A stretch of 64,000 nt of DNA from Arcuatula senhousia (taxonomy: Eukaryota > Mollusca > Bivalvia > Mytilida > Mytilidae), in contig CAXARO010000226.1 in NCBI GenBank assembly GCA_963971305.1, forward strand, positions 1 to 64,000, written 5' to 3'. Positions 16,061-61,480 of the stretch are shown in pieces. The number at the start of each line of letters is the position of its first letter. Position 1 is the stretch's first letter. A model generated the notes under the pieces. That model had not been told where the DNA came from, did no database searches, and worked only from the letters and a program-made list of their open reading frames with translations. Position numbers and translations under genes: made by a program.

Positions 16061-16115
16061 CAATCTCCGAAAATATAAATTTTAGAATTAAATTTAAGTT
16101 TTGTTATATAAATAC

Positions 16116-16240
16116 TTACCATCACAAATTTAGATAACAGGTACTAGCAGCTTCATTGAACCGGAAACCAGACAAAAAAACTGATGACCTCTAGCTGACC
16201 GGAAGTAACCCGACACTGACCTCTCAACTTCATCTTTTCC
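16116..16240. repeat. DIRS inverted terminal repeat, left copy
   Basis: About 125 bp from ACCATCACAAATTTAGATAA to the TCAACTTCATC block is mirrored at 46848-46975 with few differences. Confidence 0.85.
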
Positions 16241-16295
16241 AATCCAGCACAGGCCAGACTAAAAGGGGGATGAAGGGGAGGGGGGAGGGACCTCA

Positions 16296-16397
16296 GATTT
16301 GTGATGGTAAGTATTTATATAACAAAACTTAAATTTAATTCTAAAATTTATATTTTTATAGTAATAAATACCTTACCATCACAAATTTAGATAACAG
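16296..16397. repeat. DIRS internal complementary region
   Basis: 16296-16355 is the reverse complement of the left terminus (16073-16133). 16356-16397 is the reverse complement of the right terminus (46949-46990). The two halves abut as they would at a circle junction. In DIRS-1 this region templates completion of the circular DNA intermediate before recombinase-mediated insertion. Its presence argues that the copy arrived by this route and kept the needed cis sequences. Confidence 0.85.
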
Positions 16398-16428
16398 AAT
16401 GCGACGAAGCGCGGAATCCCCCTATAGT

Positions 16429-17169
16429 CTAATGAGAAACCACAGGAGGAAAAATAACCTTTTGAGCAGAAACTAGAGGTCCCAAGGCATAGAGGTTATC
16501 AGAATGATGATCCATGGAACGCAGGTAATGATAAAAGAAAGCATTTTCAGACCTCCAGAAACCTGCTGACAGAATCTCTGAGAGTGAGGCAGAATTGAAA
16601 ATGCTCCAGGAAGAGGCAATAGCCCTAACTTCATGAGCCTTAACAGAATCTTTGGGTAAAGAAACCCCAACTGATTTATAGGCTTGAACAACAGTATTAC
16701 AAATCCAATTAGAAATGGATTTAGCAGAAATGTCTTTCTGGCCCTTCTTAATTGGAACAAACAAGCGAGAAGAGCCTTGTGGTCTTAAGCTGGAAGTCCT
16801 CCTTAAATAGGCCTCCAGATTACGGACAGGACACAGACTGTGAGAGAACTGATCTGGAAGAGCTGGCACAACAATAAGACCAGAGCCTTTATCACAAAGC
16901 TGGTTCTTAGCGAGAAAAGCAGGATCAGTCAAAAGAGTTACAGAGGATCTATCTGCTGAAAATCGGATACAAGCGTCTGAAAAAGAGAGAGCATGAAGCT
17001 CACTTCTTCTACGACCTGAAGCTAAAGCCAGAAGAAAACAACACTTGTAAGTGAGAAATTTCAAAGAAATACTCTCAGAAGGGATATAAGGAGTAAGTTG
17101 TAAGGCTTTTAGAACTAGGCCTAAATCCCATGAAGGAACAAGACGCCTCTGCTTTGGACGTTCAATAGA
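16429..17169 (-). pseudogene. DIRS tyrosine recombinase, C-terminal catalytic part (gene split)
   Basis: This minus-strand segment encodes about 245 residues beginning IERPKQRRLVPSW and ending at a stop at 16429. It contains the tyrosine-recombinase signature: an arginine in ASGRRRSEL, HEVRA (H..R box), and GFWRSENAFFYHYLR with the candidate nucleophilic tyrosine. Within this segment the frame is undamaged. The N-terminal part lies 25.5 kb away at 42698 onward, ending RNFS(I). Between them is the TIR element with TSD ATAGA. With the insertion and one TSD copy removed, the frame reads straight through as FSIERP. As it stands the gene is disrupted and cannot make the full recombinase. Confidence 0.85.
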
Positions 17170-17203
17170 CAGTCCAGGCACTTACTATTTATTGTAATAT
17201 TAC

Positions 17204-17950
17204 AAAGTGAAGTAATATTACAGTAGACAATAAGTTAACTATATTACACGATTTTGTAAAATAAGGCAATAATTGAGTAGTTTCCCTTTGTCCAGACGAT
17301 TTTTCTTTTGTAAAAAATCTAAAGGGACACAACCTCATATATTTTCATGAAAAATGAGAAAACAAATGAAAACAGATTATCTTTCTTTACTACAAAATCG
17401 CGTAATCGTATGTAGGAGAAAATACTAGTATATTTAATAAGGCCAGGAAAAGTTTTCAATGTTTTAATTGCAGATTTTATAATATATGTACTAAGTAGGT
17501 ACAACAAAGTGTGGCCTTGTGACTTCGTCCTTGGGGGCAATCTGAAATTAGTTATATTTTCGGCATGCACAAAATATAAAATTTAATGCACAAAACATCA
17601 AATTAAAGGCAGAAGCTTTGTTAACCTTTAAAAATATTCTTTTTGTTTATCTTTAATTGTCCTTAATATGTGCTTAATTACAATTTGAAAGCATTTAAAT
17701 GGTCGTCATGGATCCGTCAATATTTGAAAAAATAAATCATGTGAAGCAACTTTTGGATTCACAAGGAAGCTTTTGCCAATTAAACAAGAGCACTGAAAAA
17801 GGCACTATCTCTGTTTTAGCATTTATTTTTAACACACTTTCAAAGTGTCCAGTCGATCTTTTTTTCGGTTAGAGAGGGGGGGGTAGCTTCTAAAAACATC
17901 TCTTACTTGTCAAGTATTCAAGATAACAAACATTATTCATATAGAATTTT
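17204..17950. other. No gene seen inside the 25.5-kb element, left part
   Basis: AT-rich sequence following the subterminal GTAATATTAC copies. No recognisable coding motif or repeat boundary was found. Confidence 0.4.
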
Positions 17951-17954
17951 TCCG

Positions 17955-19715
17955 AATTCTAGTGGATCCGTCCCCAAACTTTTCCGTCCCCTAGTTGATC
18001 CGCCCCAAGTAGATCCGTCCTTGGTTGATCCGTCCCTTAGTTGATCCGTCCTCCAGTAGATCCGTCCCCAATAAAACTTATATAATGTAGTAGTTATACA
18101 AGTTATTAGTTGACGAGTATAGGCACATGTTTTAGACTGACATGTGCGGCAAATATAGTAACTTAATTACGTGTTTAAATTGCAAGTTATCTTGTTAATT
18201 TGGAGAAAAAGTTAATAAATGTGATTTCCATTAATAGACGAAGTGTTGTGCGCGCAAATTTAAGCGGTTCTCTATGCTTTTCATTAATAAGTAATGATCA
18301 TTATTGCATTACATATTTTCAGGTTTGAACCTCTAGTGTGGTTTATATAGCAATTCATTTCAGATTATTCTTAGAAATATTGAGGAAAAAAAGTTTTAAT
18401 ATTGTAAAAGTATTAAAGATTTTTTTTTTATATTACATTAAGACGGACATATACGATGCCGTCAACTTTTCCACGCTGTCTGGGGATGAAAGTAACAAAA
18501 TTTTCGATGACCAGAAACCTATAGAACACTCACTCTGATCTGCGACAGCATTTTCAAACGAAAATCTTCTTCAATTCAAAGGATATAGAGTCAAATATTT
18601 CTAAATATGTTTTACATTTGTGTTTTTTTTTCTGTTGTTTATAGGAGCGTATTGCATTTGCATAAATTTTACAGATATGCGATACAAGCTTATATTTCAT
18701 TTGCGACACGAAAAAATCTTTCATTTGCGCTAGTCTCAGGTAACGGTAATTAAAATTGAACTTAGAGTTTTATGTCAGCTTTTTTCTGTGAGTTTAAATC
18801 CACTTCTCAAATAAAATAAAGTCGCTTTTGTACAAATGTTGAATTGCATGTCAATCAAAATGGTCATAATTTTATCAGTTAATTCTTTACTTACAAGCTT
18901 TGTGCTACATATCTGTAGAGTTCTAATGTGTTTCTTTGGGGAATTCGGTGTGGTATTTGCACTATAGCGTTTTAAATCTTTTACTTTGATTTTTTTTATG
19001 CAGATATTGTGTTTTAACACATTATAAGCTTTACATTGCTTTTACTGGAAAACATACTTTTATTTTATAAAATTGTCAACATTTAACCTTTATCAATGGC
19101 GCGGGTCGGAACCCCCCCCTTTTCCTCCGAATTTTTTTTACATTTTTGTGTAGATTTTCAGCAAAATTGGTCTGGAACCACCCTTTGCCCCACAGAACCC
19201 AGTATGTGGAACCCCCCCTTTCGACAATTTCTGGATCCGCCCCTGAGAAATTGAAATTGTCAAAAATCAATGCACCGATTTTTATCTATATTGTCCCTTC
19301 CGATTGTAAATGTAAAAAAATGAAATGACTATTTGAAGTGTATCCTATTTAAACTTCAAAAGGAAAAAAGAATGTTCCAAACTGTAGTGTTAAAGAAACC
19401 ATATAGATCTTATGTCTAGGAAATTTATTATAATAGCTAAAGCTTTTGTTGGTGACAGGGCTCAATCAATATCTGTCAAAACACTGATCCGATTTGAGCC
19501 AATTAGCAAAAAGTGAAATTGATAAATAGTTATCAAAATTATCTTCTTTTTTAGATAATAACCATTTCTTAAAATTTTAAAACTTAAAAGTAATATGTGT
19601 AATCGTTCTTGAAAAAAGACTATATATTTCATTATATTTTAAAATGGGGACGGACCGACTAAGAACTAGAGGCCGGATCTACTGTGGACGGATCAAACTG
19701 GGGACGGAACCACCT
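17955..19715. repeat. Candidate element bounded by inverted clusters of GATCCGTCC
   Basis: At 17960-18080 the motif GATCCGTCC or GATCCGCCC appears about six times, alternating with CTAGTTGATCC-like spacers. At 19645-19712 the same motif appears inverted (GGACGGATC, GGACGGACC, GGGGACGGAAC). Inverted clusters at both ends suggest subterminal transposase-binding repeats of one element. The exact tips and a TSD are not clear. The interior is non-coding and includes a smaller GGATCCGCC repeat at 19094-19245. Confidence 0.45.
19094..19245. repeat. Short GGCGGATCC-ended repeat (MITE-like), decayed
   Basis: The right end reads CTGGATCCGCCCCTG. The left end, CAATGGCGCGGGTCGGAACC, is an imperfect mirror, and C-runs follow both tips. 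The layout matches the cleaner copy at 52922-53090. No target duplication survives. The short ORFs on both strands here are by-products of the repeat. Confidence 0.5.
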
Positions 19716-28500: not shown

Positions 28501-28509
28501 TCCTGCTTT

Positions 28510-31455: not shown

Positions 31456-31486
<31 letters not shown>

Positions 31487-42697: not shown

Positions 42698-43110
42698 ATA
42701 GAGAAATTCCGAAGAAGCAGAGAAAGAAACTCATCTTGACCAAAATCTGACCCTCCTGCAAGATGTATAGTGCGAGCTATAGCTGACCTATACCCCCTAA
42801 TGGTGGAGGGGGAGTACCCTTTCTCCTCAAAGAGAAAAACAAAGAAATCAGCTAATTGTTGTGCAGAAACTTGGAGTGGATCAATCTGTTTTGACACACA
42901 CCAAGAAGAGAAGATTGACCACTTGGAATCATAGACAAGTCCTGTAGATTGTCTGACTGACTTAGAGATGCGAGTGGTTGCTTGATCAGAAAATCCCTTC
43001 TTACTAATGGATCTCCTGATAGCAGCCATGCGTGCAGATGGAGCTTCTCTATTCCCTGATGCACTTTTCTTCCCTTGAATTGAGACAGAAGATCTCTTCT
43101 CAGAGGAAGA
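42698..43110 (-). pseudogene. DIRS tyrosine recombinase, N-terminal part (gene split)
   Basis: This is the 3' part of a long minus-strand frame (42670-44859) that overlaps the RT gene in another frame, as in DIRS-1. Recognisable recombinase core-binding sequence includes MAAIRRSISKKGFSDQA, SKWSIFSSWC, FFVFLFEEKGYSPSTIRGYR and ARTIHLAGG, ending DEFLSLLLRNFSI. The frame then runs a few codons into the 25.5-kb insertion and stops at 42670. The catalytic half continues at 17169 downward. The start codon is uncertain because the frame stays open far upstream through overlap with RT. Confidence 0.75.
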
Positions 43111-45155
43111 CAGAGAGGATTGGCACATGACAGAAGAAGGAGTTCTGGAAACCAAGACTGTCTCGGCCAAGCCGGAGCTATAAGAATGGTCTTGCAACAA
43201 TCTAGACGAATTTTCTGAAGAATCTGAGATATGAGACGAAATGGGGGGAAGATGTAATTGAACATTCCCTTCCAAGAAATGCTCAAAGCATCTACTGCCC
43301 AGGCCCTCTGATCTGGAACTGGAGAAACATAAGTCTCCAGTTTGTGATTTAGACTGGTGGCAAACAAGTCCACATGAGGGCGATCCCACAACAGAACTAA
43401 AGATTGAAACACAGTTGGATGCAACTCCCACTCCGTGTTTACTGGTGAAAGGTGGCGAGAGAGTGCATCTGCAAGAATATTCTGATCCCCTGGGACATGT
43501 CTCACTGAAACTAGAATGTTCTGACTGTCGCAAAGAAGAAGGATCTCTTTGGCCAGAAGATACAGAGAATGGGAGTGAGTCCCCCCCTGATTCTGGAGGT
43601 ACGCCACTACTGTAGTGTTGTCCGAAGCAATCAGGAGACTTTGCCCTTGAATCAAATCTAGAAAATGACTCACGGACAAGAGAACTGCTTTCATCTCCAA
43701 GACATTGATATGATCCTGGAGATTTGAGGCACTCCACTGACCCGACACTGTCTTTCCCTCTAGAAAGCCTCCCCACCCTGTCATAGAAGCATCTGTGTAC
43801 AGAGTTAGAGAGGGACTTGGTAAGACCAGAGGTTGACCTCTCAACAGGTTGGACCTCTGAGACCACCAAAGAAAGTGAGGGAATAGTCTTGGAAGAACTG
43901 GAATAGGAGCATCCCAGAGTTGAGAGGCTGGATGCCAAAATTCCTTGAGATACCATTGGAAAGGACGAAGATGAAGTCGACCTAAAGGTACCACATCCAT
44001 TAGGGAGATCAAGAATCCTATCAACTGAAGGAATAGACGAGCTGGAACAGAGGGGACTAGATAGAAAGTGTTGATCCGATCCAGAAGAGACTGTACTTTC
44101 TCCTCTGGAGGAAAAACTAAACCCAAATCTGTCCTGTAATGCTCCCCCAAAAAGATGAAACTCTGACTGGGGATAATCTCCGATTTCTTCCAAGAGATGA
44201 GAAACCCCAGCTTGAGGATCAAGAGAATAGTGGACCGAGTGTGGACTTCCAGATGACAAGACGAGCTGTTCTTCAGAAGAGAATCGTCCAGATAAGAATG
44301 GATCAGAATAGACTGACTGTGAAGATGAGAGACAACAGCTTGGAAAACCCTGGTAAAAACTAGAGGCGCTGTTGACAGACCAAAGGGCATTGCTTTGAAG
44401 GCATACACCTTCCCTTTCCAGAAAAATCGAAGGTATTTCCTGAATGGTGGAGCAATTGGAATATGGAAGTAGGCATCGGTCAGATCCAAGGATGTCGACC
44501 ACATCCCTGGAAGAATGGTCTGCCTGATAGATCTGTTTGTTTCCATCTTGAAATGGGGAACAACCAGATGTCTGTTTAGTACAGACAGGTCTATGACAGG
44601 TCTCATCTTTCCGTTCCGCTTCGGAACGAGGAAGAGACGAGAGTAGAAACCTGGAGAACAAGGAAGACTCACTTCCTCTATGGCCCCCTTTTGGAAGAGT
44701 AGAAGGATTTCCTCCTCCAAAAGAAGATTCTTGTGTTGATCCCTGGTCATTGAAAGATTGAGAGGAACAGAAGACAGAGGAGGTACCTCCTGAAACTGTA
44801 ACTCTAGACCCCCCTGTAGTACTGAGAGAACCCATTTGTCTGAAGTGATCAACTTCCACTGATCGATGAAATGGGACAACCTTCCCCCTACTGGCACTTG
44901 AGGAAGAGGTGCTAAGAACTCCTCCTCTGAGCCTAGGGATTGAGGTACTGACAGGGGGAGCAACACATCACTTACTAGACTTGAAGCCCTTCTCCACCTT
45001 AGATTTTTTGAAGGAAGAAGGAGCATTCTGTCTGAAACCACCTGAACGGCGCTTCTGGCCAGAAAAGGAACCTCTCTTAGGACCAGAAGAAGAAGGCTGG
45101 GTAGTAGAAGAAGAGGAAGGGGTAGTAGAAACTTTCCTCTGATCACCTGAAACAA
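42852..45155 (-). CDS. DIRS reverse transcriptase / RNase H / methyltransferase-like polyprotein
   Basis: 767 codons uninterrupted. The RT domain shows GFYSRLFLVPKRNGKMRPV, SLDLTDAYFHIPI, AMPFGLSTAPLVF and the catalytic SYLDDSLL. RNase H follows with LYTDASMTGWGG, NVLEMKAVL, ASDNTT and GDQNILADALSR. The C-terminal region (HVDLFATSLNHK, then DQRAWAVDALSISWKG, YIFPP and ILIAPAWPRQSWF) matches the methyltransferase-like segment characteristic of DIRS-1 elements. The ORF overlaps the end of GAG by about 190 nt in a different frame, and its own 3' end overlaps the recombinase frame. It is intact, which implies recent insertion. The ATG at 45155 lies within the GAG overlap, so the true start could be internal. 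Confidence 0.9.
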   Translation of the reverse strand: MFQVIRGKFLLPLPLLLLPSLLLLVLREVPFLARSAVQVVSDRMLLLPSKNLRWRRASSLVSDVLLPLSVPQSLGSEEEFLAPLPQVPVGGRLSHFIDQWKLITSDKWVLSVLQGGLELQFQEVPPLSSVPLNLSMTRDQHKNLLLEEEILLLFQKGAIEEVSLPCSPGFYSRLFLVPKRNGKMRPVIDLSVLNRHLVVPHFKMETNRSIRQTILPGMWSTSLDLTDAYFHIPIAPPFRKYLRFFWKGKVYAFKAMPFGLSTAPLVFTRVFQAVVSHLHSQSILIHSYLDDSLLKNSSSCHLEVHTRSTILLILKLGFLISWKKSEIIPSQSFIFLGEHYRTDLGLVFPPEEKVQSLLDRINTFYLVPSVPARLFLQLIGFLISLMDVVPLGRLHLRPFQWYLKEFWHPASQLWDAPIPVLPRLFPHFLWWSQRSNLLRGQPLVLPSPSLTLYTDASMTGWGGFLEGKTVSGQWSASNLQDHINVLEMKAVLLSVSHFLDLIQGQSLLIASDNTTVVAYLQNQGGTHSHSLYLLAKEILLLCDSQNILVSVRHVPGDQNILADALSRHLSPVNTEWELHPTVFQSLVLLWDRPHVDLFATSLNHKLETYVSPVPDQRAWAVDALSISWKGMFNYIFPPFRLISQILQKIRLDCCKTILIAPAWPRQSWFPELLLLSCANPLCLPLRRDLLSQFKGRKVHQGIEKLHLHAWLLSGDPLVRRDFLIKQPLASLSQSDNLQDLSMIPSGQSSLLGVCQNRLIHSKFLHNN

Positions 45156-46707
45156 CTACGTTGACCTTAACATTCTGAGGTGCCTTGTTAACTTCCTCTT
45201 GAAGTTTAGGTAGAGAGTAACTAAAGAGCCTTTCCTTAGCCAGGGGAGAGAACAAAAGAGACTCCTTGACAGGCTCTGATAAAGCGGTCTTATCCAACAT
45301 CTCTTGTCGCTTGGATAAAGTAAAATTAGCCAAGGTGCCATGAACCAAACTCTGGACAAGACCTAAATTCTTGTCCACTTGGAGTAAAAAAGATTTCAGT
45401 TCATCGAATTCTTCCCCTTTATCTTTCAACAGAACACCAGCAGCAGCCAAAAAGTGCTCAGCTGTACCCAAAGCATCGCTAGAATACCTCAAGTTAGCTT
45501 CAGACTTAGACCACATGGACTGGTTCAAATTAAGACCCTCGGTAAACTTAGTACCCATCACTGAGGCATACGACTTGTCACAAGTAGGATAGCCTTTACC
45601 CAGAGAAGAATCATGGATTTCAAAATCCTTGAATTTAAAGGAAGAAGAAGGGCACAAAGAACCAGGACCAAAACCAATAAACTTGGCAGATGGAGACTGG
45701 GTAGAATGAAAACTAACTATTTTCTCATTTACCTTATCTATAGCTGCCTTAGTGTGACCTGACTCAGGAAAGGATTTATACCCCTTCGGGCAATCCTTCA
45801 CTAAACCTGAACAAGCCATAAACTCAGACGGAGCCTGAGTACGACGAGGAGGAGAAGCAAGAGCAGTGCCAGACACTTCACGTCTCAAAGCATAAACTCT
45901 AGACCTCAAGTGGTGCATGTCAGACATAGAAGGAGAAGGATCTACATCCTCTCCCCTTTCTGACTCATTACCAGGTGGAACAAAGGACGAATTGGAAGAA
46001 TGGGGCCCTGAACGACCTGGAGAAGCACAGGGAGAAGTGGGTTCCATATGATCATCCTCAGAAAAATTACCTTCCTGACTCCTAGGAGCTAAGGAAAATA
46101 GATCTTCATCTACCTCCCCGCTCCTATGAGTATCAGATAAACTAGCTTGAACCTCTGTCAACCTACCTGTACTGGACACAGCACGATCCTCGACTAACTG
46201 AAGTCGATCGTTGACCCTCTTCATCTCAGACCTCATGGTAGCTTGAAAGGTTGAGACACTGGTGGTGAGCTGCTTAATGGAGTCAGCTAAAGACTTATCC
46301 AAAGGAGTAGGTTGACTAGGAGGAGGCATCATACTAGGCCAAAAAGGAGGCATGGAGTAAGGGTCATGATAGGGGTAAGGTGATGGCCACCTAGACCTGA
46401 CAAATGAAGAACTTCTTACTCCAGTACAAGATGAAACCGCCGTGGTTTCAACTGGTCTACCCAATGCATAAGTAATGCGGGGTCTAATACTCTGGTGAGT
46501 GGGCAATCTAGGTGCAGAAAAAGACTGGCTAGACACAGGAGTAACACCTATGTGAGACTCCTGACTTGTAAAGGCCCCTAAACTCAGACTAGGGGTATTA
46601 CTTGGGCCCCATACCAAATCTAAGTTTGTAGTACAAGGGAGTTCACCCAACAACTCACCATTTAAACCTTGGTCTTCAAAAGTCTCTTCTAACAATTGAC
46701 TTTCCAT
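44968..46707 (-). CDS. DIRS GAG-like protein
   Basis: 579 codons uninterrupted, placed first on the coding strand and ending in overlap with RT. It is rich in Ser/Pro at the N-terminus. A probable coiled coil (SIKQLTTSVSTFQATMRSEM and following) lies near residues 150-190, with an acidic linker after it. A conserved-looking middle (FKDFEIHDSSLGKGYPTCDK and on) is followed by a basic C-terminus with GPKRGSFSGQKRRSGGFRQN. The position and composition fit the DIRS GAG, expected to package element RNA. No retroviral zinc knuckle is seen, which is usual for DIRS. Confidence 0.8.
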   Translation of the reverse strand: MESQLLEETFEDQGLNGELLGELPCTTNLDLVWGPSNTPSLSLGAFTSQESHIGVTPVSSQSFSAPRLPTHQSIRPRITYALGRPVETTAVSSCTGVRSSSFVRSRWPSPYPYHDPYSMPPFWPSMMPPPSQPTPLDKSLADSIKQLTTSVSTFQATMRSEMKRVNDRLQLVEDRAVSSTGRLTEVQASLSDTHRSGEVDEDLFSLAPRSQEGNFSEDDHMEPTSPCASPGRSGPHSSNSSFVPPGNESERGEDVDPSPSMSDMHHLRSRVYALRREVSGTALASPPRRTQAPSEFMACSGLVKDCPKGYKSFPESGHTKAAIDKVNEKIVSFHSTQSPSAKFIGFGPGSLCPSSSFKFKDFEIHDSSLGKGYPTCDKSYASVMGTKFTEGLNLNQSMWSKSEANLRYSSDALGTAEHFLAAAGVLLKDKGEEFDELKSFLLQVDKNLGLVQSLVHGTLANFTLSKRQEMLDKTALSEPVKESLLFSPLAKERLFSYSLPKLQEEVNKAPQNVKVNVVVSGDQRKVSTTPSSSSTTQPSSSGPKRGSFSGQKRRSGGFRQNAPSSFKKSKVEKGFKSSK

Positions 46708-46847
46708 GTTACAAATAGTCTAATTATATTACCTGTATATAATACACTTAATATAACTTCAAATACTTATGGATATATTTCAAATTTGTCTAAAGTTTCG
46801 AAAATATTTTTTCTCTTCGTGGTTCACGTGCTGCAAGAACGGAAACC

Positions 46848-46990: not shown

Positions 46991-47250
46991 AAACAGAGTA
47001 TAGTCAATCCTACGTCAGACTAGTAACTCTGCCACACGTAGTCAACCATGATTAATCTCCAAATAAAATAAAATTAAAAATTTTCGTAAATGAGTCACCA
47101 AAATATATAAAAACAAAAATAAATTACTTTTAAAGTAATTATGGCATTAAAAAGGCAAACTTTATAAAATTTCTATCATCACAAGAATATTATATTTTGG
47201 TTCCTGTTTACACTTCGTGTGGTGTCGTCTGGAATGTTGACAAACATAGA
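46991..47250. promoter_or_regulatory. Inner left TIR and upstream region of the DUF6589 gene
   Basis: AAACAGAGT to ACTCTGCCACACGTAGT (46991-47042) is the displaced inner part of the left TIR. About 200 AT-rich bases separate it from the ATG at 47251, so any element-borne promoter must lie in this short span. No certain TATA box is visible. Confidence 0.45.
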
Positions 47251-50200
47251 ATGGTCAAAATATGTGTCGTTTGTTTTGATGACAAATCATGGAGATATCA
47301 CTCTTCAGAAGATTCTGACTTGTTGAATTTTATTACGGATATCACAGCAAAAAGTTTAAATAGCAATAGCAGCAACAGTTTTTCGATTTGTACAAACAAA
47401 ATACTATTATGTCATTACTGTTTTGGGACATTTACCAGGTTTTACAAATTTCTTGAGGAGACGAACAAAAAACGGTACATAGAAGTGGTTTTGAAGCTGT
47501 TGTTACAATTCAATTTTGGGGTTGCACATATTCAAACCCCATTCAAACTATTTAAAAAAACACAAAGGATCTCCTGTACTTGGCGATCACAATACTGGCA
47601 TACATTTTTTTCCCAAAAAGTATAAACAAGACTGGAATATTGATGTTCCAGTATTGTTCCTTGAGTAATACATGTACATTATGTCATAGACATGTATGTT
47701 AGATAGAATGCAAGTTTTCTCACTCTTTGCCTTTCTAAGAAATTAATCAGAATACATTGTTTTGAACAATTAAACTAAATATTAATGCATGGATGACTTT
47801 GTGAAAGTTTCATATAATTTAAATATAAAGTGAAAACTTAATAAAAATGTTGTTAAAAATGTATAAATTTGCACATAAAAGGGGTGGTACATTCTGTTCA
47901 TCTAACTTGGTGAAGCAGGCATTGACAACATCACTAGGCCACTACAACATACATGTATTACACCAGAAAATAATGTAAAGAGAAACAAAAAAACTTCAAT
48001 ACTACATGGAAATGTTAGGGTCAGCTGACTCACCAACATGGGAAACACAGTTTTTACATGATTTAGAATCAGTGAAAAGTATAACCGAGGCAAAAGACAG
48101 AGCATCTATGCTATGGTGGCAGGGTTGGCTAAGAATTGATGGCCCAGGTGTTCGGGACTGTGATTAAAGTAATCACAACATCCTAATTTTGTGTAATTGT
48201 AAATAGGTAGATAGGGCTTGTGTATATATAAGAATGAGACATGCATGCATTTAAAAAAAAACCCATTAAACTTGTATAAGCCCATATCAAGTTAATTTAT
48301 AGACAATTTGGCATTTCTAACTTAACATGTCAATTTTATTATATATATACATTTGTATATCTTTTTAAACATATTTAAATCCCTCACTATTAAAATCTGT
48401 TTTGTTATAGTGTTCTCATTTAGTTTTTACTTTAAAAGTGTACATGCACAAGTCTGATTGTTATGCAGGTTAAATGAGGCCAAAATAACAGATATTAAAC
48501 AAATAATATAGTCAAATATTTGTCAATTGAAACAATACTGGTACAATACTGAAACACAATACTACAATAAAATTTTGAAAATCAACAATACTGGAATAAA
48601 ATTTTGTTCCAGTATTGTGTTTTCCAAGTACATGAAGTACAGGAGATCCCAAAAAAACATAAAAAAAACATAAAACTTATCTACATGCACATGTTTACAA
48701 GGAGTAATAAGAATTCTGCATTTCAAAGGCTTATGACTGTTTTAGCATCAAGAGGAAATGCAAATGATGAGGTTTGCTATTGTCGGAAACATATGTACAA
48801 ATGTATTATTAAATCAATATTTGGATTTTATGAAAGGAAGCAAATGTCATTTATTAAGGACCAAAAGGGTAAACTTTTGTAATTGTGATTTAATTTTGGT
48901 CTGCTTTTCAAAAAATGAATTCCGTGTGAAAAGTGTGTGGAAGGTCCACCAAAAGATGCATGTCAAAAAAATTGTCAGTACACTATGGGCTGCATGTGTC
49001 CAGAGCATTTGACAATCCTTATTGGGCCTAAAATGTACATGGTTTGACCTATTATTCACTAATGAATTATTTCTTTTATACTTATATATTTCAGTTCATA
49101 AGAGAGTTGAATAACTTGTCGATAACATTGTCCTGTACTGGGAAACTTAATTTACAAGACAAATTAGTGGACACATCAAAGCAACTAATGGTAAAAGCTT
49201 TGACCAGAAACCCTTTTCTGAAAATAACAGGAGACAATCTTGATCTATATATTAGAACAAACCATCAGAGAATTGACTCTGACAACAAAGACATCCATTG
49301 GTTTGCCTCAAACATGACAACCAGCAGAATAGATGTGTCATCCCTTTCCCATATAAAGCCTCAGGTTAGTATTAATTATAAATGTGAATATATTTACATA
49401 TGTCACACATTATATTTACACAGTCATATGTAAAATTCATTCATTACTATACCCTTGATCCTAGGTAGTCAACTTCCTGTTTACTGAATACTTAGGTTTT
49501 TACTCATAATGGACATAATTGCAAAATTTCCGTCACAGTTTTCTAAGCAGCTAAATGAGATAGATACAATTTATGGTGTATACCAATCTCCTTGCTGTTT
49601 AACTTAGGTTTTGGGAGCAAGGGTATCACTTGTGAGCATAAGCTTACATATTTACTTGTTTTTCTCTCTCTTTTGGGCCCTCTCAGGTGCTGTTAAAAAT
49701 TTTAGTCCTTGTTCATGCACTGCATAATGTACTTTCACATTTACATGTAAGCTGATTTCTTCTATGAAATCTAAGTGAAATCTTCATGAACTGTAAGGTA
49801 CATCAAAGAGGACAAACATCAACCATTTTGTCAAAAATGTTACAATATGAACCTTAAATAAAAGGTCATCAATAAATATATCTGATACTAATTTTTGATA
49901 TTAAAGAATTTAGCACATCCAAAGAGTATTTAGTATTGTTTAAGGTTCATGGTTATTCACTAACTCACATTAAATTCAAGAGCTCTCATCTCTTGCATGC
50001 CATTGGATTTTATTCTTTCATTCCCAAATAGGTTAATTTTCATGATATTAAAGCAGAGATGTTTTTGCTAAATGAAATGGAGGCCTTGAAAATTAGAGAT
50101 GTCAAGAAGGTATTAGCTGGGAGACTTCTGCTGGACAGTGACCAGTATGCTTGGTTAAAGCTTCCTAAACACATTCCTCATAGGTGATATAACACTTAGG

Positions 50201-53200
50201 GTTATTCCAGAATTCTTTGTATGGGGGAAGGGGGGGGGCGGAAGGCACTATAATTAAAATTGTATGGGTGGTGGTATTTTTAGATATTTCTCAAATGCAA
50301 CTTAAAGGGAAAAAAATCAAAATTTTATGCGTGGTGGGTATATAAAAAAGCGCCTTCTGATCCACCCATACATTTATTTCTGGAATAGCCCTTATCATTT
50401 TAAACAGTATAATATTTTCAAACCTAAACTATCATCAGCATTGCACATTGTGCAGATAAAGCCTCGATCATTAATTAGTATTGTAAATGTGATCTATGTA
50501 CATGTGTTACACATTATATTAACACAGTCATATGTAAAATTCACATATTATTTAGCTCCTTTTGTCTTTTGTCATTTAGGGATATATTTTGTGGTATCTT
50601 CAACTAAAAATAAAAATGTGTCTAATTGCTTCCAATTTAATCATCACACCATATTTTTACACAGCAGCTAGATTTTAAAGTACAAGATTCAATTCTTAAA
50701 TCAGTTTCAAATCACTGTATACTTGAAATTAAATGATTGGGAAGTAATTTAAATCAGATTTTTTTTACTGGGATTTTCTTCAAAAATGTTCAAACTGTCC
50801 TGATGACCCTTAAATCACAATTTTATTTCAGGCATATAAGCTTAAGGTACCTAGCTTTCAGGCTTTACTTTTTTGGTCAAACTTTTATAACTATTGCCAT
50901 TTACTTTTAAACAGATACAGTGAGAGTATGGCAAAAAAATCAACAGTATTTTCATTGCCAGTTATGTTCAAAAATGAGTCCAAAAATGAGGATTGTTTGG
51001 ACATAATGAAAGAGTATGAACAAGATCTAGTGGTGATGTTCCAAGAAGCATTTGGTAGATATAATGATTTAATATCTTGTACATGCATGTACTTAAGTCA
51101 TATACATAAATTGTAGGTAAATGAATACAAAAGTGAAAAAGGGACTTGCACGAGGAATCATGATCTTATCTCAATAAATAAATATATATTAACAAGGCAT
51201 ATTAAAAAGGAAAAGGGGTCTTACTATAATTATATTAACACTAAAAGGAAAAGTATACAAAAAATATGGTGGCTTATGTGATCTAGCATTCTAAAAGACC
51301 ACATCAATATTGTGTCAATATACTTGATTTCCCAAATAAGAAAAAGTTTTCCACAAGCAGTCATAATATATGCTAGACCATATATGCAATCATTATGATA
51401 AGCTAGAATTAATAACTACATGTACTTGTATTTTGTTGAACATGCATGTATATCTACCACAAACTGGCAGATCGCATGCAGGTTAATTAATTATTATGCT
51501 GATAAGAATTTGTATTACTTTATAATTTTAGGTGGTTTAGATCAGCTCAATCAATATGGAGCAGTTCTTGGAGGTGATCAACTCACCCGTGAGAGATTGC
51601 AAAATGTTAAGAACATTCGTTCCATTGCTGTTACACCAGAGGGGAGATTTGAACACTTGAACCCCATTGTCTGTGAACTTTGGCATAAGAAGCAAGATCT
51701 TTTAGCTGTAATTTACCTATACTATAACATAAATAGATTTGATTTATTGTACGTGGTCTGTGTCGAATACAGCTTATTCCACATCACATTATTTTCTATA
51801 ACATGATGAGTCATGATTGAAATATAGACTTAATTTTTAATGAGAATCAATATTCTTTATTTATAGGATAATTAATTGGGTTGAGTGAATAACCAAAATA
51901 TGATCACGAGTCGGTGAACGCACACAGATTTACATGAGTGCGCGGAACTTGTTCCGCGAACGAGTTAAATCTCAGTGCGTTCCCACACGAGTGATCATAT
52001 TTTGGTTATTCATGAGACCTAATTGATTATCGTATTTATTACATAGATAAAATGCAGCTATTTAATAGTTTTTAATAAATTTATTTGAATGGCGTATGAA
52101 TTTAGACCGCAGGAGTCATGCCGACAACGCAATACAATTCACGACGTCATAATTGAGTTTGACCGGAAAGGACGCAAGAGTGAAAATATTTCAGATTTTA
52201 TTTCACTGGGAAAAATCGGTATTTCATATGCATCTATGTAATAAATATAGGTTAATGATTCTATTGTGAATTATTATTTTACATTTTAATAACATGCATA
52301 TAAACACACAGACTATAGCTATACATCTAAATAACTTCCATATGATATATTATGGTATAAAGCAATAATGAAATAATTGACTTATAGACATACATGCATG
52401 TATCACAGCTGTGTATTGAAATTAACTATAATTGGTTCAGAAAAACAGAAAGGAAATGTGACATCTGATTCCTAAGTAAGTTAATCAAGTTGATACATGT
52501 GAAAATAATAAAAATTCTTTTTAAAAAATAGTTAGCAACCATTTTATTCTGGATTTCAAAATGCAGCTAAATGAATCCATCCAACACATGGATTACTAAT
52601 AACAATTAAATCATTCCAAGTATTATTTATGTACATATCTTTTCCTAACTTGTTGATTTCTTTACAGAAAGCTTTCAAATCTTTGTATAATTCCGACTCA
52701 GTTGGTCAAAGAGGAACACTAGCAAACCTCAAAGTTCTTTTGAGAAGATCTGATGTTAACGGAAATGTCAAGTCCAACTACAAAGCGCATGAGGACTTGT
52801 TTCTTCTTGTTGTGAAGGCACTGGTTTTGTTGGCTGGAGAAAAAGCTTTGACTCAATGTGTAGGCCAGATTGAGAGAAATACATTTCTGGACAAACTTTA
52901 CCTTATATTAAATGGTAGGTCCAGTGGCGGTTCCAGGATTTTTGAAAAGGGGGGGTCCTCGAAAGAAAAAGGGGGGGTCCAAAACTATAATTTGAGGATT
53001 TTTGCATAAATTTTGCATGAAAATCACAGAATTTTCAGACGAAAGGGGGGGGTCCAGACCCCCTGGACCCACCCTCTGGATCCGCCACTGAGGTCACATA
53101 GTATAGATCTAAACAAGAATTTGTATGAAGTCTCTGCTGATAAATCTATAAAGATACAGTTTGATCAATTTTTTTGACAAGCTTCACACATTCACACATA

Positions 53201-54540
53201 AGCTAGCTAGCAATTTGATAATACAGTGTACGGTCGGTATGACATTAAGCATATGAGTGGAGGCCGCTGATGATCCCCGCCACTTAAAAAATAAGGGGTG
53301 AAACACTGATCAAAATAAATCATTGATAAAACAATAAATAACAAAAAAATATATATTCAGAATGTAAGATTTAAAGAATATCATGTACTTTTCATTTTCT
53401 ACTATCTTTATCTTTAAAAAACTCATTTTGATAATGCATAACAGTTCAAATATATTTGCATAATTCATGTAAATTTGAATATATATATATATTACATACA
53501 GGCTTAGAATTTGGTGAAGAAGATGATGTTATGAATTACTTTTGTAATCTTGTAACATGGGGTTTAATGATTCTGAACATGAACGATACTGCAAAGGAAG
53601 GTGATTGTGAACGGCTCCTTTTGAATGCCAAAGACAACATTCCCGCCTTCCTTGGGCATTCAAAATACAGCAAGTATTTCACAGAAGAAGTAAACACCAT
53701 CCTGCAAAACAAAGTACTGTCACCACAATTAGGACTAAGACTGCTTGATGGGGCATTTATTAATACAAAAGGTGGAGAAGGCAAAAATAAAGAGGCTGAC
53801 TTAGTTCAGGAAAATTCAATCAGAAATAAAAAAGATATGATAAGAAATTTAGGTAAGTAAATTTAGTTAAGGAAAATTTGATCAGAAATAAAAAAAGGTA
53901 TGATAAGAAATTTAGCTAAAATATGAATTTAAGTCATAATAATATGAAAATACAGATAATTTTGTAACCTGATCTCTCCATAGCAAAGTGTAAAAAATAA
54001 TTATTTCTGTTGAACATGCATCACATCTAACTTATACATGTGTACTGTATGTAATGCAACATATATGTCATTTAATTCTTATACCGATAGATCAATATTA
54101 AAAAGGCACAATAATTTGTATGAAAATATGCTTAATTATGAATATGAAATAATTTTATTATAATTTTACTATATATATACATATGCACTGTATATATATA
54201 TATATAGTTGTTTTGATTATCAATTTCAGGTGCGAACAAAACCGAAAAAGCTGTTGAAAGAGCTTGTGGGGCAGCAGACTCATGTAAAGAGATATCACAG
54301 AATTTAAGAAATCAACTTGGGCTTCAGAAATTGTCCCAAAATCACTCTAAGAAATCAACCACAAAAGACCTTGAGTTAACTTTAAAGGTATTGAGACAGG
54401 TTGACCCATTTACATTTCAAAAGGGGAGAAAGTTGAAAGGGTTTTCTAATATAATGAAAGATCCAAGAAAGAAAGTCTGTGATTCGGAGTTAAAACATGA
54501 AGTTGAGAAAAAGGCAAGGAGACTTTTTATGAACTCTTGA
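47251..54540 (+). CDS. DUF6589-type protein with N-terminal zinc-finger-like exon, eight exons
   Basis: Exon 1 starts at 47251 (MVKICVVCFDD). It holds two CxxC pairs (CVVC, CHYC), like a ZAD-type zinc finger. Its donor is uncertain; a GTATAA after codon QK near 47620 would fit phase 0, but a MITE covers this point. Later exons are 49095-49364, 50032-50183, 50915-51054, 51532-51707, 52668-52914, 53502-53852 and 54230-54540. All have AG/GT borders and compatible phases (549 codons including the stop). Key motifs are ITGDNLDLYI, DIHWFASN, VLGGDQLTRERLQ, FEHLNPIVCELWHKKQ and ERACGAADSCKEI; the tail is basic. These are the pattern I know as DUF6589. DN.D and GGDQ followed by a conserved E/H block suggest an RNase-H-like transposase core, but that function is inference. 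It faces the helicase gene within the same TIRs. Confidence 0.8.
47567..48650. mobile_element. 1.1-kb MITE-like element in or beside exon 1 of the DUF6589 gene
   Basis: GGATCTCCTGTACTT at 47567 and its mirror ending 48650 are the tips. Inner blocks CAATACTGG and CCAGTATTG repeat in both orientations. The flanks AAAAAAACACAAA and AAAAAAACATAAA (12 of 13 identical) may be the target duplication plus pre-existing A-runs. A plus-strand patch at 47925-48165 looks faintly coding but carries a stop and is unassigned. The insertion obscures the exon 1 donor. Confidence 0.6.
51887..52011. mobile_element. 125-bp hairpin MITE in an intron of the DUF6589 gene
   Basis: GAATAACCAAAATATGATCA at the left is mirrored at the right, and the loop carries GTTCCGCGAAC. 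Nearly the whole unit folds on itself. If the tips include one more T, TGAG may be a 4-bp duplication. Confidence 0.6.
52922..53090. mobile_element. 169-bp MITE (CAGTGGCGG ends) with 5-bp TSD, next to a splice donor
   Basis: CAGTGGCGGTTCCAG and its mirror CTGGATCCGCCACTG are the tips. AGGTC flanks both sides (52917-52921 and 53091-53095). The body has G-runs and GGGGTCC repeats. It starts 8 nt after the last base of exon 52668-52914. The donor GTAGGT is retained because the duplication supplies AGGTC. Confidence 0.85.
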
Positions 54541-54689
54541 GGCAGCTAATTAGATAGAATGTTGAAAATACTGCAATTATTATGTGATATTGTAAACATT
54601 TGAATATTCATTTCAGATTTGTATTTAAGATTTGAATATTTTATAGCCCGCTTCTGATTATTGAACTGAACATAATCAATAGAACTTAA

Positions 54690-55640
54690 ATATTTTATCT
54701 GTGATAGTTTACATACTTAATTTGACTGTGATAACTTAAATATTTTATCTGTGATAGTTTTAAAACATACTTTATTTGACTGTGAGCTTGAATATTTTAT
54801 CTGTGATAGTTTACATACTTAATTTGACTGTGATAACTTAAATATTTTATCTGTGTTAGTTGGCTTAATTTGAAAGTGAATATAACTTAAATATTTTATC
54901 TATGAAAAATTACATGTTCTTAATTTGACTGTGATAATTAACTTAGATATTTTATCTATGATAGTTTATATATACATAATTAATTTGACTTGTGATAACT
55001 TAAATATTGTATCAATGTTATCTGTGATATTTAATTTGACTGTGATAAATTAACTTAAATAATTTATATTTTTATTTGATAATTAATATGAACTACTTTA
55101 TCTATGATACTTTAATACTTTATCTGTGATAGCTTTGATACTTGTGATATACTTTAGACTGATAGCTTAGGCACTTAATTGTTATACTACTTAAATACTT
55201 GAATTAATTATCTGTAATGGCTTAAATGTTTTATCTTCAATAGTTTAGATACTTTATCTGTGACAGCTTACATAACCTTTCTTTTATATTAAACTGAAAT
55301 AATTAAATTATCTGCAATAGCTGTTATTGTGATAACTTGAATTCCTTTTATTTGGTAACTTTAATTTTCCTTTTTTATATGTATTTAAACTGAAATACTT
55401 TATCTGATTGTGATGGTTGAAATATTTTTCTTTCCAAATTAATTTAAATATCTTTATTTGAGATTAATATTAATTTTAGAAAATTGAAGGCATATTATAA
55501 TCTTAAAGACATAAATTTGATATTTGATATAACTAAAATACTTTATCTGACTGTGATAGCTGAAATACTAGTAGTTCATTCGTGATAATTAACTTAAATT
55601 TTTGTATTTAATATTTTTTATTTAATATTGAACGTAACTG
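54690..55640 (+). repeat. Degenerate AT-rich tandem repeat after the DUF6589 stop
   Basis: Units built from ACTTAAATATTTTATCTGTG, then ATAGTTTACATACTTA and ATTTGACTGTGATA, repeat with variable spacing of about 50-70 bp. They decay toward the right. The array lies in the convergent intergenic region and may include the 3' end of the transcript. Confidence 0.6.
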
Positions 55641-57174
55641 AAGAAAATATATTTTACTTCTCAGAGGATTCACTTGGATATTTTAAATCTGTAACATCTG
55701 AATCAAAGACAAATGATCATTTTCTGGCATAAATATATTCTACTTATTTATAAAGTCTTTAAAATACTTTATATGACATTCTCAACATTCTTTGTTTGAA
55801 AACTGTATTAATTCAAGCATTTATTTTATATTTTAAACTGTTACTTTGAATATAATTATTTTTGCTTTCAAGTGTGTGTCAAACTTGCCCAGGCAAACTT
55901 TCTTTATATTTTTAGATATAAAAAGGCTAAAGCTTTACTTGTTATAAATTACATTTTGTAAATTATTATTTCTTATCATCATTGCATTTTTGTAAAATTA
56001 GTTGTATGTTATTCAAGGATGCTTACTGAACTGGTTTTGGTATTTTTGTCATTTTGTTGGTATACCAGGGTTTTTTACCATCAAAATAGATTGAAATATT
56101 GACCCAAAAGCCTGCCTTATTTTCCTTTACACTGTATGTCTTGAATATAGCATTAAGAGATATCCAAAAAAATATTCTGTGTAACATGTTGCTTTATAAA
56201 ATGAAACATTCAGAGAAAACCCTTATCTGGCCATATATATAATTACTAAGTCAATTTTCTGGAAAAAAAATCAGAAATAGTAGTTTTCACAGTTATTTTT
56301 GCTTTACCTATAATCCTTTTACTCAAGATGCCACATTTTAAATCTTTTTATCTATTTAAATACTGAGTAAATAGTTATACACAGGCCAACATTAATAAAT
56401 TGTTTGTTTTCCCTTTTATGACCCTACTTCTCAGGTGGTGGGTGGGTGGGTAGGTAGGTAAAATATTTTTTTCCCTTACATAACTTTTTATATATAGCTA
56501 TGTACACTGCTACTGAGTAACCAATATTCAGTTAGAATCATATTTTTTTTGAAAATATGAAGGGGTTTTTGAATAAAAATTATAATTATAAATTTGTCAA
56601 AACTTTATTGAATGAGTTAACTTAGTCAAATCCCATAAATTAGATTAAAAAAATGAATTCCAAAAGCCCCAAAAATCTTTCCAGTAGGGCTGATTTTTTC
56701 TGGGTAGGTTGTAAAAGGGCAAACAATTAAACAATCTTTCAATTTTGGCCTAATACATGTAGTTATAATAAAAAAAAACTGTTTAACATACCATCTCATT
56801 TGAAAGCATTCATCCTATCAAAGTTTGTTTTAGACTTCATTGAACAATACATGACAGTATGACTAAATGTTTTATACTGGACTTATATTCTCAAAAAAAT
56901 GTTCTACTATATAAAATAGTTATAATTAACTTTTTAGTCAATCTATTATAATTCTAATAATGTTTAATATATGAGCCTTCAATTAAAGAAAGTTTGACAT
57001 TTTGTCCTATTTTTAATCTTGATAAAATCATTTAAATTTGGTAAAATATTTGTGAAAGGTGCATATGCTGAAAACAGCTTTGCTCACATAGCTATATATA
57101 TCAATATGCATATCAAGAATGTTTCTTAACCAAGGAATGATACATTTTTCAATGTCATTCTGTGACTATAAATT
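55641..57174. other. Spacer between the convergent transposon genes
   Basis: Very AT-rich, with no further gene. A short GGTGGGTGGGTGGGTAGGTA run lies near 56435-56460. The 3' untranslated regions of both genes must end here, but no single poly(A) site can be singled out. Confidence 0.4.
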
Positions 57175-60100
57175 TCATGTCTGGCAATTTGAACAACAGT
57201 TTTCAACAAATGCACCATCCATAATACCAAACTTTGATAGAATGAATGCTCTCAAACAAGATGTTTCCCTACAGTAAGCCACGATGTCATCTTTGATGTC
57301 CTTAATATTACTACTAATTTCACTGTTAGTATAATATAAGACGGAAAGTGCCTTCTGTCCCTTTCTTCCTGCCCGGCCTATCTCCTGTACAAAATCTGCC
57401 AAATTCCTTGGAGGTTTGGTATGGATTACATTTACAACAGAGGGAGAGTTGAATCCCATTCCCAAAATAGAGGTTGTAAATACAAGTCTTACTCTAGGGT
57501 TTTCTTTTTCTAATTCAGCTAATATGACCATTTTGACAGTTTGGTCCTGTCCGCTACAAAGAGCTCCAAAAAGGCAATCATCAAGACAAGGGTGATTAAA
57601 CAGATAATTACAGTAGGCAACAGCATTCCCCATATACTGTAGTGGTATATAAACCAGGGTTACAGGGAATGCTGCACCTTCTTCCAGCAACCTATCACAC
57701 AGAGGCTCATATATAGCCGAATACCCTTCATATACATCAACTGAAGTGTCTTTCATTTTTTTGGATAAAAAAATGTTTGGTCTGTCTGGGCTTTCTTTTA
57801 CAATGGCAGGATTCTTCATTCCAAGGGCATTGATGACATCCTTTTCATCTTGAATAGTGATGGTTGCAGAAAGTCCAATCTTGGGTATGTCAGGAAAATA
57901 GGCTGAAATATCTTTCAGCTGTTGAAAAGCTCTTCTGAAGTTTGAACCCCTATAAAGAGATAAGAAATCTTTTTATGAGAGATATCCATTCCAACTTTTT
58001 GTCATCATTGTGTGTATTATATACAGGTGCATGTATGATGTTATTATCATATCATGTATATATAAAACTGCTTTACTCCTATCTGTCTATACCCCTGTTT
58101 GCAATGTTAGTAACTTTCTTAACATTTTCTCCGAAACTATTTATCACAGAGACTTGATGTTCATTATGTCAAATATTGATTAGTCTCAGTGTGTCAGCTA
58201 TATACTTCCTGTTAACAACATGATGATAATTTTTCCATTTAAGTGGTCAGTAGTAAATTTCTTGTAATACATGTACATGTATTGTGTTCTCAGCAACTTC
58301 ATGACATCAACTGGATATTTGATATGCAACAGTAGTGTATTGAGTGTGTGTGTTGGTGTTTAACACCCTTTATCGACGCACCTGGGCCATGTAGGGCGGT
58401 CAGTTTTAATGGTGGAGGAAACCGGAGTACCCGGAGGAAACCACCGACCTTGGGCAGGTAACTGACAAACCTAATCACATACAGTTGGGGAAGTAGTCTA
58501 TTGAGATAAACCATACTTACCATTGATAGCACATGATGATACATACTTACAGTCATGTCTTTCAACTTAAACAATAACTAAAATCCAAAAGATGAGCATC
58601 AGGCATTTTAACAGAGGAAATCATGCAGACAGAAGAAAAATGTCAGTGAAATAAGCAAATGAAATGTTTATCTCATTCCGACAGACATGTTACTTTTGTC
58701 AAAAACAGCAACACTGATGGAAACTGAAATTAAAAGAATTAATAAGAAAACATTTAAACTGAAAAATAATACATGTACATACCAGTCATGAACTTTGTGA
58801 CACTCATCAATGACGATAGCTTTCACCTTTGAGGTAAATCTGAATTATAGCATAGTAGAATACGGAACATTAGTAAACATTAGTTAACAGCCGTTGGATG
58901 GAAACATTGTAAATGTACTTACAAAATTCATATTCTATAAAATACAAAATACCAAAGTGGTATAGAACAAAATGGATAATTTGGTTATGCTGCATAGGCA
59001 TATTCCAAGAAGTAACCTCATATTAAAAGCTATTTATTATGAGAAACAAGAAGTTTCTTTAATCAGTCTGCTGGCTGAGAAAAATAAGGTTTTTATTGTT
59101 ACCTCTATTTTGAACATTATGTCTTACACTTTATTTTAACTAAAATTCGAATAAATCCTTGAATAGTGGTAATTTCTTACAAATTGCAGCACTAGTTAGA
59201 ACCCCCAGTTTCCAAGAGCTTGGAGGGACTGGTTAGTGATCCATACGTTTTGCTCTTAAATTGAACTTAGTATCAAACGTCCATCTTACAGTTATGTTAT
59301 AAACTAACTAGCATACTGTAGAGGATGGTTAAGGATCAGAAGGTACATATACTTCAGAATACAAGCTACATTAAAAAAAAGAACAACAATGTTAGCAGAG
59401 TTTACCTTGGGCAGGAGTCAAAATTGCCCCCATAACTACAAGTAGAGTACCTTTTATTGCAAATAAATCCTTCCATATCTCCAAGCTGACAGGAACTCAT
59501 CTAAGTACTTTGGAGTTACCCTTGCTTAATCCTCCTATTGAATGTGTTACAATTGAAGTTGATCTCTCTGATCAGTAAAAACTCACATATAAAATGTACC
59601 TTGTAGTATGAAGGAAACATTCTCCTAGTATAAAAGATTTACCTGTTGAAAATTTCAAATTGGCAAAATAGCTGAAATATAGTATATCTATAAAAAGAAA
59701 ATGAGCAAAAAATGTCAAAAAGTTTTTTAAAGCATACAATTCAGAAAAAAAATCATTGATTAGTTGCAAAAATAATAAATTTAAGCAATATCTCTCAGAG
59801 AGGAGCTTTTTTTCCTTCAGGTAAAAACCATATACTACCTTTGAGTAGTTTTCATTTTCAATGATGGTGTGAGTTTAACTGATCAAAGAGATTAGTTGCC
59901 AATTTTACAAAATTCAATATATTGTAGGAGAATAAAGACAAAGAAGGGAACGCCAAAGTACCTTGATGAGTTCTTGTTCAGCTTGGGAAAATGGAAGGAT
60001 TCATTAACATTATAAGAGCTAGGTCAAGGCTTAAATATTGACCCTTACATAAACATGTAAGCAAGCAACATTTTTTTTGCACTTCCTACTAATTTGATCC

Positions 60101-61332
60101 ATCGGTAAGATACTCGGATATATACCTTTCTGACTGCAACAAATTTTGGCCTTCATCTGTCTTAAAGAAGGCCTCTGGGTGGGCAAAAATTAAGTTTGAT
60201 TTTTGTATAGATTCCAAAGGAACAGATGCTTCTAAGTCTAGAATCTCATTCTCCTCATCTACCAAGTCAGTCACAACACGACCCTGTTTTCATGGTTGTA
60301 AAATTCAATTATTAAAAAATAATTATAACATAATAAACATATACAAAAATGACAAAGACAAAAGACAATACTAATACATGTATGTGTTCAAACTTACAGA
60401 TCTAATTTCAGTACTTGCAATTAAAGAATCTCATACTGAAACAATATTCAGTCAAAGAAATTAGGAAGTGGAGTCCAGTTGACATGGTGGACCGAATGCA
60501 TATTTTCATCAAATTTGCTAATTTTTTCCTATATGTTTAATTTGAATTAATGCAATATCTAACTGGACCGAACCAATTTTAACTGGATATTTCCAGTAGG
60601 TCTGGCCTAATTTCGAAGACTGCATATTCTAAATTTCAAGCCAGCTGTGATAAATAGTTGCTCAGAAAATCTTATGATAATTTTCAACATTTGGCCAGTA
60701 ATTTACTAATAATTTATATGAAAGGATATGGAGTAAATGAACATGAGACCATAACACATAGATAAGCACTATTCACAGGTACAAAATGTATCAAGACACT
60801 TCGGTACTGGCTTGGATATTTCGGTACTCGGTACTGGATTGAGTGAGTTCAGTACTTGGTATTGTCACTTCAGTTCCGACTAAAAAAAATGTAAATTGCA
60901 GCATTGGATAGTAATTTTTACTAAATATGTGTTAAATTACTGATGTAATGTTATCATCATACACTAAAAATTTCCACATCTCTTTTTGATGTTCTTTTTT
61001 TTTTACTTTGATTGTGTGAATTGAAAGAAAATACAAAATGTAATTAGGGGCTATAAAATGTGCCACACCTTTGTATTCAAAATACAACTGGTAAGCTCAG
61101 TATTTTTTAACTCTTTCAGTTGTTCTTCTTGAATCGCCGAGAGTGGACTAAAGACAATGACAACTCCATCTAACAGGAACGGCAAGAGCTGATAAATCAA
61201 ACTCTTGCCGTATCCTGTTGGCAAAACGGCTAATATCTCTCTCCTCCCCAATTCTACAAGATCAAACACTTCTTTCTGTTTTTCTTTTAAGGTGTAATTT
61301 CTTTTCAATTTGTCTATAATTAATTCTTCCAT
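57175..61332 (-). CDS. RecQ-type ATP-dependent DNA helicase, four exons, transposon-borne
   Basis: Exons run 61069-61332, 60126-60283, 58783-58839 and 57175-57949. Phases match throughout, giving 418 codons with the stop. Motif I is VLPTGYGKSLIYQ (Walker A) and Ia is FSPLSAIQEEQ. Then come LIFAHPEAFF, motif II IVIDECHKVHDW, motif III IGLSAT, and in the second lobe VRLVFTTSILGMGF and motif VI VQEIGRAGRKGQ. The C-terminus (YCRETSCLRAFILSKFG, then CCSNCQT) supplies four or five cysteines like the RecQ zinc-binding domain. There is no winged-helix or HRDC region, so this is a minimal helicase. The start MEELIIDKL was chosen for its RecQ-like beginning; an upstream in-frame ATG at 61416 lies at the inner edge of the TIR. 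A role in unwinding DNA during transposition is inferred from its placement. Confidence 0.88.
58335..58490 (+). repeat. Conserved SINE-like core in a helicase intron
   Basis: GGTGGAGGAAACCGGAGTAC, CCGGAGGAAACCACCGACCT and GGGCAGGTAACTGACAAACC form a core that I associate with short interspersed elements across molluscs and other invertebrates. A GTGTTGGTGTTTAACACCC head precedes it. Confidence 0.6.
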
Positions 61333-61416
61333 AACCTTTCCGTAGTGAAAGACGCAGGATGTAGAATTAGTTTCGCGTCTCGGACAAGTCCTAAACCGGA
61401 AGGAGAGGTAGCTCAC

Positions 61417-61480
61417 ACTACGTGTGGCAGAGTCTACCTAACGACATAAGGAGTGCTGTTAGACTCTGTTTCGGAGATTG
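61417..61480. repeat. Right TIR of the RecQ/DUF6589 transposon
   Basis: Read inward from 61480 it is CAATCTCCGAAACAGAGT, a variable middle of about 29 bp, then ACTCTGCCACACGTAGT. The same outer and inner blocks make up the split left TIR (16061-16072 plus 46991-47042). The outer 18 bp and inner 17 bp are near-identical while the middle differs, as expected if two protein-binding boxes are under constraint. Confidence 0.85.

Follow-up and report, generated by a model that had tools for sequence, protein, structure and literature searches.

A nested DNA transposon of probable AcademH type with a DUF6589 gene and a RecQ helicase gene in Arcuatula senhousia

The stretch of Arcuatula senhousia DNA analysed here, 64,000 nucleotides of contig CAXARO010000226.1 (the window), contains a nested set of mobile elements. 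The principal member is bounded by terminal inverted repeats (TIRs) and a 9-bp target site duplication (TSD), and it contains a gene for a DUF6589 protein together with a convergent gene for a small RecQ helicase. This element is quite probably a DNA transposon of AcademH type, moving by cut-and-paste, in which the DUF6589 protein would be the DDE-type transposase and the element's own RecQ helicase an accessory. The assignment to AcademH is made because every feature of that group that could be tested here agrees, namely the helicase, the 9-bp TSD and the host. A preliminary description of this DNA had regarded both genes as parts of one mobile unit, and the TIRs, the TSD and the recurrence of the gene pair in other genomes support this. 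It had also proposed an undescribed type of transposon, a claim that gives way to the printed account of AcademH as helicase-encoding elements with TSDs of 9-10 bp (PMC10045372). Since the element probably belongs to this already named group, the useful new point would be the identification of DUF6589.

Boundaries of the element and the insertion in its left end

The element spans 16061 to 61480, with CAATCTCCG as its first bases and CGGAGATTG as its last. Its ends, and the DIRS-type retrotransposon that splits the left one, are as follows.

16052-16060, + strand: left TSD, AAAAATACT, 9 bp, adjoining the left TIR
16061-16069, + strand: outer left TIR, CAATCTCCG; the AAA after it is common to the end of the DIRS element
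16070-46993, - strand: DIRS-type retrotransposon inserted at the AAA of the left TIR and foreign to the element, recognised by its internal complementary region and open reading frames (ORFs)
46994-47042, + strand: remainder of the left TIR, ending ACTCTGCCACACGTAGT
61417-61480, - strand: right TIR, 64 bp
61481-61489, + strand: right TSD, AAAAATACT, 9 bp, adjoining the right TIR

Matching TIRs of about 61-64 bp had been proposed, and they are present at 61 bp on the left and 64 bp on the right. Both start with CAATCTCC; 18 outer and 17 inner bases are identical, and the middle has diverged. Without the DIRS element the left end starts CAATCTCCGAAACAGAGT, with 18 bp identical to the right end. 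When the left TIR minus its first 12 bases was compared with the right end, a score of 22 was obtained, and 2 of 5000 random pairs scored as high (best 26). The perfect 9-bp duplication is likewise found as described, with AAAAATACT at both flanks. This 9-mer occurs in the window twice on the + strand, as the two TSD copies, and once on the - strand; its occurrence at one fixed position has a chance of about 2.6e-5, given the base composition.

The retrotransposon sits within the first 12 bp of the other element's TIR. Its internal complementary region at 16297-16397 is the exact reverse complement of its right end plus its left end, with an AAA overlap, and because this region matches the joined ends, the borders of the DIRS element are fixed. 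A reverse transcriptase ORF (42852-45155) gave an RVT_1 match with an E-value of 3.2e-19, above the cut-off. Matches below the cut-off were obtained for RNase H (E 0.003) and for a tyrosine-recombinase-like ORF at 16429-17181 (phage-integrase family, E 0.0018). A gag-like ORF at 44968-46719 is named by its position and had no Pfam match. With reverse transcriptase and RNase H, a tyrosine recombinase, and inverted ends with an internal complementary region, the stretch 16070-46993 has the features that define DIRS elements. A 45-kb transposon as such was rejected, as about two thirds of that length is the DIRS element with its own 25-kb insert; without the DIRS element, the coordinates give a transposon of about 14.5 kb.

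The 25-kb insertion lies in the recombinase region of the DIRS element, at 17170-42697, and has inverted ends CAGTCCAGGCACTTACTATTT and a 5-bp flanking repeat, ATAGA. None of the ORFs of at least 150 amino acids (aa) in the window falls wholly within it. Inverted and tandem repeats are numerous in its interior, at about 22.6-41.9 kb.

The gene pair and its recurrence

Between the TIRs, the DUF6589 gene (+ strand) and the RecQ gene (- strand) are convergent. The following features were recognised in this part of the element.

47251-47475, + strand: probable exon 1 of the DUF6589 gene, start MVKICVVC, with a CxxC..CxxC pattern; its donor is not fixed exactly
47567-48649, no strand assigned: 1.08 kb bounded by inverted ends GGATCTCCTGTACTT, separating exon 1 from the coding stretch that is recognised next
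48691-48771, + strand: N-terminal DUF6589 coding stretch, MFTRSNKNSAFQRLMTVLASRGNANDE, found by tblastn with Mytilus proteins
49095-54540, + strand: DUF6589 core, 548 aa, exons 49095-49364, 50032-50183, 50915-51054, 51532-51707, 52668-52914, 53502-53852 and 54230-54540 (stop)
54682-55274, no strand assigned: stretches of AT-rich tandem repeats, lying between the 3' ends of the DUF6589 and RecQ genes
57175-61332, - strand: RecQ helicase gene, 417 aa, exons 61332-61069, 60283-60126, 58839-58783 and 57949-57175

The seven exons of the DUF6589 core are bordered by AG acceptors and GT donors and form a single 548-aa open frame with a stop at its end. The Pfam family PF20231 (DUF6589) is matched by the ORF stretches with exons D and F, at 30 and 49.8 bits against a cut-off of 27; the other ORF stretches scanned gave no match to it above the cut-off. 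Near the start of the Mytilus homologue P0014, a CxxC..CxxC pattern is found in the same place as that of exon 1. The stretch with inverted ends at 47567-48649 is probably a small nested insertion, a non-autonomous transposon, inside the DUF6589 gene. For protein P0001, DUF6589 was the sole match in a Pfam scan, and an NCBIfam scan returned no match.

The four exons of the RecQ gene have AG/GT borders and encode a helicase core followed by a RecQ zinc-binding C-terminus, that is, a minimal RecQ. The earlier identification of this gene is upheld by the best PDB matches of the 417-aa protein, which are WRN, bacterial RecQ, RECQ5, RECQ1 and BLM. Its last exon matches Helicase_C, and RecQ_Zn_bind barely over the cut-off; the closest homologue, P0052, has helicase domains alone. 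Scores for the NCBIfam model recQ_fam (cut-off 219.8) lie below the cut-off for P0052 (192.2) and P0060 (170.4) and above it for P0076 (237), and because they straddle it, these three proteins are regarded as divergent RecQs. The description of two convergent genes whose exons keep frame thus holds for the 548-aa core and the 417-aa RecQ, but not for the DUF6589 N-terminus, which is not continuous.

Recurrence of the gene pair was assessed with protein searches that returned 51 DUF6589 homologues and, on the RecQ side, 2535 matches, of which 120 were listed. Equal contig size in bp was taken to indicate the same contig, the comparison being one of sizes with the contig DNA itself unread. By this measure, 9 of the 51 DUF6589 rows share a contig with a RecQ row among the matches listed, and when the sizes were shifted by 1-50 bases in either direction as a control, 100 shifts together produced 3 matches. 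Three of the nine rows, from Mya, Pinctada and Pecten, lie on chromosome-sized contigs and offer little proof. Two DUF6589 rows and a RecQ row fall on a 228,124-bp contig of Mytilus edulis, and contig matches of the two genes were also obtained in M. galloprovincialis (137,857 bp) and M. coruscus (1,270,694 bp). The Patella caerulea contig is chromosome-sized as well, but the locus tags of the two genes are consecutive (SNE40_014314 and SNE40_014313). A further match concerns a size of 4,961 bp, at which chance coincidence is easiest; if this is one contig, both genes lie side by side on it.

The RecQ tree comprised 49 proteins: the RecQ of the window and 48 rows chosen by hand out of the 120 listed. 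Five rows with a DUF6589 contig match fall into one 24-tip clade (support 0.87). The three contig-matched Mytilus rows and the window protein share a clade of 7 tips (support 1.0), and the Patella protein is placed with the bivalve ones, on a branch for which there is no support figure. Across six pairs, the pairwise identities of DUF6589 and RecQ are correlated at r = 0.97, a value reached by 2 of 720 permutations; this favours a common history of the two genes, but species relatedness alone could account for it.

DUF6589 as a candidate transposase

DUF6589 is listed in Pfam as a family of unknown function, and several copies per species, labelled as uncharacterized proteins of the host, are present in Mytilus and Pecten. 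Its reading as a transposase is proposed because conserved acidic residues in a fixed order would suit a DDE core. A GDNxD motif shows GDN in 25 of the 25 rows with letters at that point and its last D in 24. The other motifs were counted in an alignment of 40 hand-picked proteins of the 51, 11 being left out (A1). The D of GGDxLT is found in 32 of 35 rows, and the D and E of DxxxEG in 37 of 39. The D and E of DxxxE, the next K and LGxN are shared by 36 of 38 rows, with 37 and 35 at single positions. An ExxH motif (E in 32 and H in 33 of 35 rows) lies between the second and the last conserved acids. The catalytic triad would then consist of the D of GDN, the D of GGD and the last E (DxxxE), with an insertion ahead of this E. 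Pattern scans with a second alignment (A2) found 16 viral and 63 genome contig stretches that fitted, none of them coding for a relative; a further protein search with a third alignment (A3) returned 5 proteins.

On this basis, transposition can be outlined as follows. The DUF6589 protein would adopt the RNase-H (DDE) fold and bind the 61-64 bp TIRs through several parts, among them a zinc finger at its N-terminus. The transposase would cut both ends and join them to the target strands with a stagger of 9 bases; the gaps, once filled by host repair, would become the 9-bp TSD. A strand-opening step, either at the transposon ends or on the gapped product, could be aided by the minimal RecQ that the element itself encodes. 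The element may perhaps still be autonomous.

A number of observations weigh against the AcademH assignment or against parts of it. A search of the A1 profile against the PDB found no transposase, and its best match (E 0.41) was a ribosomal protein, taken as chance. A single copy of the element was seen, the one in the window. Of 55 homologues examined, three (P0014 and a pair of Clytia proteins) have the N-terminal CxxC..CxxC, the others either lacking the pattern or having an incomplete N-terminus. In tblastn with Mytilus proteins, no coding match was obtained between exon 1 and 48691, so that the N-terminus of DUF6589 is not continuous here and the copy may not be intact. Among the 29 DUF6589 rows on contigs of less than 2 Mb, 24 are without a RecQ partner among the matches listed; this may be due to the short RecQ list, to short contigs or to elements without RecQ. 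DUF6589 also occurs beyond bivalves, in gastropods (Patella, Haliotis), a brachiopod (Lingula), a priapulid (Priapulus) and a cnidarian (Clytia), and PMC10294476 reports Academ from bivalves alone among its molluscs, with few in annelids. The same source gives a mean length of 5565 bp for 100 curated Academ consensus sequences, against about 14.5 kb here.

Two further features of the window lie outside the element. A 183-aa ORF on the - strand at 9241-9792 matches DUF7869 (PF25273) with an E-value of 2.4e-25 and contains GHTHEDVDQFFSRIS; it is possibly part of another transposon. At 6340-6590 there is a tandem array of about 9 to 13 copies of a 20-bp unit.

Alternative explanations and published systems

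The host range bears on the first alternative, a separate and unnamed superfamily in which the DUF6589 transposase has no relationship to Academ and the RecQ was acquired independently. In the survey of PMC10294476, Academ is the third DDE/D superfamily by number of ORFs and is plentiful in bivalves. The DUF6589 rows that name an organism, 31 of 37 of them bivalve, fit this published range, and the non-bivalve rows do not. The misfit may arise because intron-split genes escape an ORF-based search, because the Academ profile misses a lineage, or because DUF6589 is not Academ. A spread unlike that of Academ would favour a separate superfamily, as would the Pfam entry; the word DUF6589 appears in no paper of the literature searched, nor did any paper there, those with PF20231 being judged by their titles, connect DUF6589 or PF20231 with Academ. 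However, a helicase together with a 9-10 bp TSD in animals is what has been published for AcademH, a RecQ in Academ is in print, and it is less likely that both traits came together twice, in independent systems, than once. This alternative is consequently judged unlikely, and similar doubt attaches to the idea of an undescribed superfamily, separate from Academ, in which a DUF6589 transposase has a fixed RecQ partner across molluscs and perhaps further animal phyla.

It is very unlikely that there is no functional unit at all, only a host RecQ gene and a DUF6589 gene between chance inverted repeats. The single copy and the TIRs, which are alike at both ends and not in the middle, would agree with such a coincidence, but the 9-bp TSD adjoins the TIR, the left TIR is whole once the precisely bounded DIRS element is left out, and the gene pair recurs in other genomes. 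This recurrence is a stronger argument against chance than the TSD and TIR statistics.

A KolobokH-type element, with a DDD/E transposase and a RecQ that in Kolobok-1_CCri lies on the complementary strand (PMC9587614), is the most improbable reading, as KolobokH is reported in the available text of that source from fungi only and Kolobok has a 4-bp TTAA TSD against the 9-bp AAAAATACT here, for which reason a Kolobok identity was rejected.

If the AcademH reading holds, DUF6589 would be the transposase of helicase-bearing AcademH elements, and at least some of the short 'RecQ-like' genes listed for these genomes would belong to transposons and not to DNA repair. With its well-defined limits, the element would also be a suitable copy in which to study the part of a helicase in cut-and-paste transposition, and whether the helicase has any bearing on the 9-bp stagger.

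The RecQ partner, earlier held to have no place in the usual superfamilies, has published counterparts in two of them. The phrase 'RecQ Helicase in Academ' is in print (PMC3627910), and KolobokH encodes RecQ (PMC9587614). The C/DxxH motif that hAT, P, MuDR, Kolobok and Dada have in common (PMC9587614) can be set beside the ExxH of DUF6589, which has E in place of C or D. Within Academ, two lineages encode a helicase and a nuclease, and TSDs are 9 or 10 bp in AcademH and 3 or 4 bp in AcademX (PMC10045372). AcademX, presumably of the same superfamily as the present element, differs by its nuclease, of which no gene was recognised among the window ORFs scanned, and by its shorter TSD. For AcademH, PMC10045372 cites Kojima 2020 (Mob DNA 11:15), whose title names animals and fungi; low-copy AcademH is reported from Basidiomycota, Ascomycota and Mucoromycota (PMC10799480), and in the available text of PMC12210899 and PMC8290104 the group is cited and no more. 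Compared by description, the present element agrees with AcademH in each feature tested: it is a DNA transposon that encodes a helicase, here a 417-aa RecQ-family protein; its TSD is 9 bp, in one copy; and an animal host, a mytilid-like bivalve, is indicated by the best homologues of both genes, which come from Mytilus and other molluscs.

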